From: Pseudaquabacterium pictum
Lineage (GTDB): Bacteria > Pseudomonadota > Gammaproteobacteria > Burkholderiales > Burkholderiaceae_C
Direction of reading: 5' to 3'
DNA length: 64,000 bases
Assembly: GCF_005403045.1 (NCBI RefSeq)
Contig: NZ_BJCL01000010.1
Span: 62,001 to 126,000, forward strand
Positions 271 through 3,876 of the stretch are shown piece by piece (positions within the stretch are counted from its first letter, which is position 1; each line of letters starts with the position of its first letter). The notes beneath the pieces were generated by a model that was not told the origin of the DNA, searched no databases, and saw only the letters and a program-made list of their open reading frames with translations. The position numbers were made by a program, and so were the translations under genes.

Positions 271-1533
271 TCAGGCGGGTTGGTCGCCGGCGGGCTGCAC
301 GCGCGCCGAGCCGGCCACCAGGTCGAAGCGGAACAGCCGGCATTCGATCGGCCCGTTCCACAGCGGCACGCGCCGCGCTTCCTTCAGCCGCAGCGCCTGC
401 GGCAGCTTCATGTCGGGGCTCAGCAGCCAGGCTGTCCAGCCGGGGTAATGGCGCTTCCAGTGCGCCGCCAGCTGGCTGAAGAAGGCGCCGGTGTCGCCGC
501 CATCGGCCGCGGGGGCGAAGTCCTCGCGCGCCTGGCGCGGGCCGCGCTGCTCGCCACGCGCGCCCTTGGGCGCGATGCGCTCGCCGTAGGGCGGGTTCAG
601 CATCAGCACGCCGGTGTCGGCGGGCGGCATGCGCTGCAGGGCGTCGGCGGTCTTGAACTGGATGGCGTGGTCGACACCCGCGCGCTTGGCGTTGTGCTCG
701 GCGAAGTCGGTCATGCGGAACGACACATCGCCGGCGAACACGTCCACCGCCGGCGCATGCTGGCGGGCGCGGGCGGCGTCCTTCATCTGCACCCAGGCAT
801 GCTGCAAGGGCCGGAAGGGCAGCATGCGCTCGAAGGCGAAGCGGCGCTGCAGCCCGGGCGCGATGCCGCAGGCGATCTGCGCCGCCTCGATGGCGATGGT
901 GCCGGCGCCGCAACAGGGGTCGAGCAGCGGACCGTCCTCGGCCCGGCCCTGCCAGCCGGCGGCAGCCAGCATCGCGGCGGCCAGCGTCTCCTTCAGCGGC
1001 GCCTCGCCCTTCAGGCCCTGCGCATCGCGCCAGCCGCGCTTGAACAGCGCCTCGCCCGAGGTGTCGGCATACAGCGTGGCATGGGTGGGCGTGAGGTGCA
1101 GCGACAGCGGAAGATCCGGCCGGCGGGTGTCGATGCTGGGGCGCTCGCCCACGGCATCACGCACCACGTCGCACACCGCGTCCTTGACCCGCAGCGTGGC
1201 GAAGTTCAGGCTCTGCAGCGGCGAGCGCTGGGCCGTGGTGTCGATGCGGAAGGTCTGCGCCGGCGTGATCCAGTCGGTCCAGGGCACGGTGCGGGCCAGG
1301 GCGTACAGGTCGTGCTCGGTCTCGTACGGCCCATGCGCCAGCGGCCACAGCACCCGCTGGGCCAGGCGGCTTTCCAGGTTCAGCCGCATCGCGGTGGTGG
1401 CGTCGCCATCGACGGTGACGCCGCCGCGCAGCATCTCGCCGCTGGCCTGCGGGCCCAGGATGCGCAGCACCTCGTCGGCCAGCAATTCCTCGGTGCACGC
1501 CGCGCAGGGCAGGAACAGGGCGACGGAGCTCAC
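271..1533 (-). CDS. rlmL: THUMP-domain class I SAM-dependent RNA methyltransferase (RlmL-type)
   Basis: 420 residues. The N-terminal half is a ferredoxin-like plus THUMP RNA-binding region. The C-terminal half is a Rossmann methyltransferase with DPCCGAG (about 205-211, SAM site) and NPPYGER (about 323-329, the N-methyltransferase NPPY motif). This matches the RlmL half of E. coli RlmKL, which methylates the exocyclic N2 of G2445 in 23S rRNA; the RlmK half is absent, as in many betaproteobacteria. The start is GTG, and GTGA overlaps the rpoN stop by four bases, so translation is probably coupled to rpoN. The exact target guanine is inferred from the family. Confidence 0.85.
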   Translation of the reverse strand: MSSVALFLPCAACTEELLADEVLRILGPQASGEMLRGGVTVDGDATTAMRLNLESRLAQRVLWPLAHGPYETEHDLYALARTVPWTDWITPAQTFRIDTTAQRSPLQSLNFATLRVKDAVCDVVRDAVGERPSIDTRRPDLPLSLHLTPTHATLYADTSGEALFKRGWRDAQGLKGEAPLKETLAAAMLAAAGWQGRAEDGPLLDPCCGAGTIAIEAAQIACGIAPGLQRRFAFERMLPFRPLQHAWVQMKDAARARQHAPAVDVFAGDVSFRMTDFAEHNAKRAGVDHAIQFKTADALQRMPPADTGVLMLNPPYGERIAPKGARGEQRGPRQAREDFAPAADGGDTGAFFSQLAAHWKRHYPGWTAWLLSPDMKLPQALRLKEARRVPLWNGPIECRLFRFDLVAGSARVQPAGDQPA

Positions 1534-3086
1534 AGCGCCTTGCGCAGGTTGGCCGGGGCGATCTTCAGCGCCTCGCGGTACTTGGCCACGGTGCGCCGCG
1601 CCACGGTGATGCCCTGCTCGCCCAGCATGTCCGACAGCTGGCTGTCCGACAGCGGCTTGGCCGGGTCTTCACTGCCCACCAACTGCTTGATCAGCGCCCG
1701 CACCGCGGTGCTGCTGGCGTTGCCGCCGGCATCGGTGTTCAGGCTGGAGCCGAAGAAGTACTTCAGCTCGAAAGTGCCGAACGGCGTGTTCATGTACTTG
1801 GCCGTGGTCACCCGCGAGATGGTGCTTTCGTGCAGGCCCAGCTCGTCGGCGATCTCGCGCAGCACCAGCGGTTTCATCGCGATCTCGCCATGGGTGAAGA
1901 AGCCCTTCTGCCGCTCGACGATGGCCTGGCTGACGCGCAGGATGGTGTCGAAGCGCTGCAGGATGTTCTTCATGAACCAGCGCGCCTCCTGCAGCCGGGC
2001 GCTCAGGCCGCTGGCCGAGCCGTTGCGCTGGCCGCGGATGGCCTGGGCATACAGGTCGTTGATGCGCAGCTTGGGCATCACGTCGGGGTTGAGCGTGGCC
2101 TTCCAGCCGCGGCCGGCCTTGATGACGATGACATCGGGCACGACGATGTTGGCCTCGGCCTTGGTGAAGGGCCGGCCGGGCTTGGGCTCGCAGGCGACGA
2201 TCAGCGCCTGCGCCTCGCGCAGCGTGTCTTCATCCGCGCCGGTGGCGGCCACCAGCTTCTTCATGTCGCGCCGGGCCAGCAGTTCCAGGTGCTGGCGGCA
2301 GACGGTCATCGCCACCTCGCGGGCCTTGCTTCTGGGCAGCTCCTTGAGCTGCAGGCACAGGCAGTCGCCCAGGTTGGCGGCGCCCACGCCGGTGGGCTCC
2401 AGGCTCTGCAGCCACTTCAGCGCGCAGCGCAGCCGGTCCATCAGTTCGTCGCGGTCGTCGGCACCGTCGTCGCCGTCGATGCCCATGCCCAGGGCCAGGC
2501 GTTCGGCGATCTCCTCCAGCGGGTCGGCCAGGTAGCCGTCCTCGTTGAGGGATTCGATCAGCACCATCACCGCGGCCGCGTCCTCGGGCGACAGGCGCAT
2601 GCCCAGCAGCTGGCGGCGCAGGTGGTCCTGCAGGCTGGGGCCGGTGTCGGAGCTGTCGACCGGCTCGTAGTCGTCGCTGTCGCCGGAGGCGCTGGCGGTG
2701 CTGTTGGACGGCAGCTCGCGGATGCCGTCGAAGTCATCGCGCTCGGTGCCGTTCTCCCAGTCGTCGCGCTCGGTGCCGCCGAACTCGGCGGTGTCCATGC
2801 CGGCGGGCTCGTCGGCACCGGCCTGGCCATCGCCGCCGTCCTCGCGCTCGCTGAGCTTGCTCTTCTCGCGCTCGGCGCCGGCATCGGCGGCCGCGCTCAC
2901 CCGCTCCAGGCCGAACTCCATCGGCGCATGGTCTTCCTCGGTGTCGAGGAACGGGTTGGTCTCGAGCATCTGCTCGATTTCCTGGTGCAGCTCCAGCGTG
3001 GACAGCTGCAGCAGGCGGATGGATTGCTACAGCTGGGGCGTCAGCGCCAGGTGCTGTGAAAGTCGAACCTGCAGGGACGGCTTCAT
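1530..3086 (-). CDS. rpoN: RNA polymerase sigma-54 factor, interrupted by an in-frame amber codon at codon 20
   Basis: Read through, this is a complete 518-codon sigma-54. The natural ATG (3084-3086) lies one base after the lptB stop and begins the typical region I (MKPSLQVRLSQHLALTPQL). The next codon is TAG (3027-3029) where the family has Gln. The frame then continues with QSIRLLQLSTLEL and stays open to the end. The uninterrupted part, from ATG 2967-2969, is 479 residues with the acidic region II, the core-binding domain, the helix-turn-helix and the RpoN box ARRTVAKYRE near the C-terminus. An AGGAAA lies 8 bases upstream of that internal ATG, so restart is possible. The gene is otherwise undecayed. 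Sequencing error, a recent nonsense mutation, or translation of a region I-less sigma factor all remain open. Confidence 0.9.
3027..3029 (-). other. in-frame amber (TAG) codon in rpoN region I
   Basis: On the minus strand the codons are CAG CTG TAG CAA TCC. The family has a glutamine codon at the third position, so a single C-to-T change explains the stop. Both flanks are normal sigma-54 region I sequence. Confidence 0.9.
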
Positions 3087-3087
3087 G

Positions 3088-3876
3088 TCACATCCGGAAG
3101 TGTTCGCCCAGGTACACCCGGCGCACGTCGGCGTTCTCGACAATGGCAGCGGGCGTGCCTTCGGCCAGCACCCGGCCTTCGCTGATGATGTAGGCGCGGT
3201 CGCAGATGCCCAGCATCTCGCGCACGTTGTGGTCGGTGATCAGCACGCCGATGCCGCGGCTCTTGAGGAATCCGATGATGCGCTGGATCTCGATCACCGC
3301 GATCGGGTCGACGCCGGCAAACGGCTCGTCGAGCAGAATGAAACGTGGCTGCGTGGCCAGCGCGCGGGCGATCTCCACCCGCCGTCGCTCGCCGCCCGAC
3401 AGCGCCGGCGCGGGCGAATTGCGCAGCTTCTCGATGCTCAGGTCGTGCAGCAGGGCATTCAGCTTGGCGTCGATCACAGCGCCCTTCAGCGGCTTGCCGG
3501 CGGCGTCGACCTGCAGCTCCAGCACGGCGCGGATGTTCTCCTCCACCGTCAGCTTGCGGAAGATCGAGGCCTCCTGCGGCAGGTAGCTCAGGCCCATGCG
3601 GGCGCGCTGGTGGATGGGCTTGTGCTGCACCTCGACGCCGTCGATGCGGATGGTGCCGGCATCGGCCCGCACCAGGCCCACCACCATGTAGAAGCAGGTG
3701 GTCTTGCCGGCGCCGTTGGGGCCCAGCAGGCCGACCACCTCGCCGGCGGCCACGGCCAGGTGCACATCCTTGATGACCTGGCGCGAGCCGTAGCGCTTCT
3801 GCAGGCCGGTCACGTCCAGCCGGCTGGTCGCGGCCGCCGTGCCTTCCAGCGGGGTGTCCAGCACCGCAGCGTTCAA
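3088..3876 (-). CDS. lptB: LPS export ABC transporter ATP-binding protein LptB
   Basis: 262 residues. It powers extraction of lipopolysaccharide from the inner membrane with LptF/LptG and delivery to the LptC-LptA bridge. Visible motifs are Walker [10 protein letters not shown] (about residue 54), signature [15 protein letters not shown], Walker [13 protein letters not shown] and the H-loop ITDHNVRE. The assigned start is TTG, which overlaps the lptA stop as TTGA; an in-frame GTG four codons later is the alternative. It sits directly between lptA and rpoN, the usual proteobacterial order, and its stop is one base from the rpoN ATG. Confidence 0.93.

Follow-up and report, generated by a model that had tools for sequence, protein, structure and literature searches.

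The rpoN locus and its neighbouring genes

The window, i.e. the whole stretch of 64,000 nucleotides from Pseudaquabacterium pictum that was analysed, carries a reading frame for sigma-54 (rpoN) on the reverse strand, flanked by two further genes. The following features were located:

271..1533, reverse strand: methyltransferase-like gene downstream of rpoN, overlapping the rpoN end
1530..3086, reverse strand: rpoN (sigma-54) reading frame, broken at codon 20 (translation; Pfam matches to the activator-interacting domain AID, the core-binding domain CBD and the DNA-binding domain DBD)
2967..2969, reverse strand: ATG codon 40, a possible restart giving a 479-aa product without a Pfam AID match
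2978..2983, reverse strand: AGGAAA on the 5′ side of ATG40 (AGGAAA in 6/9 and AGGAGA in 3/9 aligned relatives)
3027..3029, reverse strand: in-frame TAG at codon 20, where readable relatives have Gln (translation; comparison with relatives)
3088..3876, reverse strand: lptB-like ABC ATPase gene directly upstream of rpoN

The names of the two flanking genes are putative, that of the lptB-like gene being based on gene order and motifs. The ATG of rpoN occupies 3086-3084, and the TGA of the lptB-like gene lies one base ahead of it. Region I is not readable as one open frame from the rpoN start because of the TAG at codon 20, which is followed by a C and, after 498 sense codons, by the rpoN stop at 1532-1530. 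The internal ATG that had been proposed as a restart was confirmed in its position, 57 nt past the TAG and 8 bases after the end of AGGAAA, and the frame from it comprises 479 codons, none of them a stop. On residues 21-518, the core-binding and DNA-binding domains (PF04963, PF04552) were matched nearly over their full length and the activator-interacting domain was matched from residue 21 onward. On the product starting at ATG40, Pfam gave no match to the AID (PF00309), while the CBD and DBD were kept.

Codon 20 in relatives and the search for a second rpoN

The genus search covered 21 genomes, P. pictum included, and rpoN was matched in 19 of them; no rpoN match was obtained in this search for G002 and G006, which are given as 61% and 84% complete. 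Codon 20 could be read in 17 of the 18 genus relatives with rpoN, and it encodes Gln in all 17, in agreement with the preliminary description, which had called codon 20 a TAG at a Gln position of sigma-54 and whose coordinates were correct. In the remaining relative (G010) the match begins at query residue 290, apparently at a contig end. This same locus (L024, G010:C113) is the closest among the compared relatives by the 3′ half of rpoN, with 96.8% DNA identity; it cannot date the stop because its match ends short of region I.

In a wider scan of GTDB genomes, the best 80 of 575 rpoN loci were examined, a set that appears to overlap in part with the genomes of the genus search, and Gln was found at codon 20 in 79 of them (71 by pattern and 8 by a looser pattern). 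The 80th locus, L063, is without the rpoN N-terminus. Within a family sample, 118 of 120 genomes had an rpoN match and an in-frame stop was listed for P. pictum only, where several of the best matches (e.g. G135, G024, G122, G030, G093 and G046) start past residue 20 and leave codon 20 unseen. A programmed stop is ruled out, since the TAG is not conserved in relatives. The interruption is private to one genome, with a sense codon in its relatives and no other decay, which is the pattern of a recent nonsense allele; a single finding, the relative excess of nonsynonymous changes on the P. pictum branch described below, is mixed.

Locus L063 (4851-6215) is the only rpoN match of Ideonella sp. MAG2. 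Here, an in-frame repeat-like N-terminus replaces what we take to be region I and the greater part of region II; the CBD and DBD were found, with no AID match, and the genome has 13 activator matches, of which 5 are strong. A 123-bp query from the insert found its full length nowhere but here, and 3 other places matched it in part. The replacement may be genuine or may stem from scaffolding.

The P. pictum assembly, which consists of 64 contigs and is given as 99.97% complete, holds two rpoN-matching places. The second, on contig C12 (L006 and L003, G000:C12:61865-62437), matches just the C-terminal 174 residues of a second rpoN gene (rpoN2) of G001 (73% identity) and G020 (75%), in both of which the rpoN2 frame is free of stops. 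It is an open 174-aa DNA-binding part that adjoins unrelated DNA; a TAG within the match falls, by translation, in an unrelated-looking stretch ahead of the conserved part. Because this remnant is without region I and without the core-binding part, the assembly shows no complete rpoN apart from the amber gene. A second intact rpoN, which would have made the interrupted gene dispensable, is thereby ruled out for this assembly. Compared with the intact rpoN2 of the two relatives, the remnant gave a dN of 0.175 and dS values of 0.493 and 0.605, against 0.025 and 0.259 for the two intact genes compared with each other, and it looks to be under relaxed selection. As a fragment that still binds DNA, it might conceivably compete for sites.

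Suppression, selection on rpoN and the sigma-54 activators

The tRNA family search gave 45 matches, and anticodons were assigned by ARAGORN on all 45 loci. These included one tRNA-Sec (TCA) and one tRNA-Gln (TTG); a CUA anticodon, as needed for a UAG-reading tRNA, was absent from the 45 loci. The gene for RF1 (prfA, TIGR00019) scored above cut-off and has no internal stop, and in a sample of 462 kb TAG closes 16 of 248 coding-like frames. Recoding or a dedicated amber suppressor, the latter having been among the options proposed earlier, is therefore unsupported. A related explanation is that leaky readthrough, or a suppressor of unrecognised type, supplies sufficient full-length sigma-54. A C directly after TAG is a leaky context, and small amounts of sigma-54 may suffice, as leaky plasmid expression did in E. 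coli (PMC4551910). The absence of a CUA anticodon, the presence of RF1, the use of TAG as an ordinary stop and its lack of conservation at codon 20 all speak against such an explanation, and we consider it very improbable.

In codons 1-39, comparison with nine relatives showed 8-20 synonymous and 0-2 nonsynonymous changes; over the last 209 codons, 19 synonymous changes and 1 nonsynonymous change separate the gene from that of G010. Relaxed constraint on the codons before the possible restart was not seen in the nine-relative comparison of codons 1-39, which would not register a relaxation that set in very recently; judged by this comparison, the region I codons were under constraint until recently. 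When changes were polarised, about 28 synonymous and 19 nonsynonymous changes (the stop counted) fell on the P. pictum branch and 40.5 and 8.5, respectively, on the G015 branch, so that the nonsynonymous share is higher in P. pictum (Fisher p 0.024, rounded counts). Among 10 aligned genomes, only 8 residues, with the stop counted as one, occur in P. pictum alone, mostly at variable positions; at residue 210 its residue is unique and the other nine are invariant. We read the excess as variation in variable segments, not decay, but it does run against the earlier statement that the downstream 479 codons are undecayed. The stop is inferred to be young, since codons 1-39 and the last 209 codons look constrained and few residues are unique to this genome.

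The activator family search of the P. pictum genome gave 16 matches, 11 of them strong, and a GAFTGA-like loop was found in 10 of these 11 (8 GAFTGA, 1 GAYTGA, 1 GSFTGA). For the eleventh, the Sigma54_activat protein at L117, such a loop was not found and it is perhaps no sigma-54 activator. Of ten activator proteins that were scanned, 1 scored above the NtrC cut-offs and 1 above that for the PEP-CTERM response regulator. Since the GAFTGA loop contacts region I (PMC7057263) and the loop is kept, the activators show no sign of being adapted to a sigma factor without region I. Strict -24/-12-like sites numbered 7 in the genome, among them C7:161887 and C14:106018, against 2 for the reversed pattern and 0 for a spacing plus one, and 102 over the 21 genomes against control counts of 29 and 31; the plus-one pattern reversed gave 10 sites in P. 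pictum and 168 over all 21 genomes. These counts prove little because chance counts shift with composition and the controls are uneven, and none of our estimates of likelihood draws on them. As ten activators with the loop and the 7 promoter-like sites are kept, no decay of the regulon is seen; this counts against a loss of rpoN, which, if real, has to be very recent.

The same observations bear on the proposal that translation restarts at ATG40 and gives rise to a sigma-54 of 479 aa that has lost most of region I; such a protein would bind core and promoters, be deaf to activators and cause weak bypass transcription or promoter blocking. Some region I residues past Met40 would presumably remain in such a product, given the region boundary that we assume. 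The ATG lies 57 nt downstream of the stop with AGGA ahead of it, and in its product the CBD and DBD are still matched but the AID is not; however, the ATG and the SD-like bases are also present in intact relatives as ordinary coding sequence, a similar SD-like motif stands ahead of 185 of the 1687 ATGs sampled inside coding-like frames, region I codons are constrained and 10 of the 11 strong activators retain the GAFTGA-like loop. In the E. coli work (PMC4551910), removal of region I leads to bypass transcription in vitro, in line with the preliminary description, and at glnAp2 and 42 degrees the delta-region I form reached almost half of the wild type in vivo; the same work describes it as inactive at pspA, as giving eight low-level sites genome-wide and as mostly inactive or silent in vivo. 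The restart product would resemble this laboratory form (PMC4551910), which was made on purpose, whereas its natural counterpart in P. pictum is hypothetical. The restart proposal has no positive support, and we regard a restart as unlikely. That the strain lives with a natural region I-less sigma-54 from Met40 to which its 10 activators with GAFTGA-like loops are no longer coupled, with L063 as a possible second independent case, is a suggestion to which we attach very little weight. A restart product would allow the reason why activator-independent sigma-54 is so rare to be tested in a wild strain.

A possible base error or a possible recent loss of sigma-54

The main rival to a recent nonsense loss is a consensus base error, or a base from a minority strain, in the assembly, with the rpoN of the organism intact. 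The interruption is a single codon in an otherwise constrained-looking gene, the TAG was seen in only one assembly of 64 contigs, and the activators are intact. Against this, stops were surveyed in the 462 kb (the 64-kb window and 20 further stretches), and 8 were flagged as lying between two coding-like segments. On visual inspection none of these resembles a broken gene; all of them look like boundaries at which a new gene begins. The survey would flag 2188 of 2950 mid-gene CAG test sites (74%) if they were stops, and it is blind near gene starts, codon 20 of rpoN included. With no gene that looks interrupted among the 8 flagged stops at a sensitivity of about 74%, the assembly does not look error-rich. 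An error in the base is somewhat unlikely in our view, with a chance that deserves to be taken seriously.

The options listed in the preliminary description (error, recent loss, suppression and restart) were sound, and the private stop most likely reflects recent gene loss or an error in sequencing; a novel type of sigma factor is the less likely reading. Between these two we lean, with some reserve, towards a very recent nonsense change, private to this genome, in its sole complete rpoN, leaving the cell null or nearly null for sigma-54; the TAG base is then inferred to be real. On this account, translation would start at 3086, probably coupled to that of the lptB-like gene, and would end after 19 residues at the TAG of codon 20. 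Little or no activator-responsive sigma-54 would be made, and the sigma-54 regulon would be expected to be silent with its activators still present.

Comparable losses are known. Truncated rpoN alleles occur in Neisseria, where stop codons truncating rpoN were reported in 4 of 290 meningococcal isolates, likewise a broken rpoN in natural populations (PMC6755734). Those alleles have lost the HTH or all DNA-binding parts, whereas the stop in P. pictum is at codon 20; no GAFTGA activators are reported for Neisseria (PMC6755734), whereas activators are kept here. In serially passaged Campylobacter jejuni, rpoN was lost in all evolved lines, a recent loss as proposed here, although by deletions under laboratory passage and not by one nonsense codon (PMC7677240). 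The table legend of one survey lists RpoN proteins with CBD-DBD and without AID (PMC12316311, legend only). Among the top-ranked matches of the literature search, none dealt with this rpoN allele.

If the base is erroneous, nothing remains of the finding. If it is real, the strain would be a naturally occurring null for sigma-54 (or would carry a region I-less form) while its activators look intact, and would be useful for seeing what decays first once a sigma factor has been lost.
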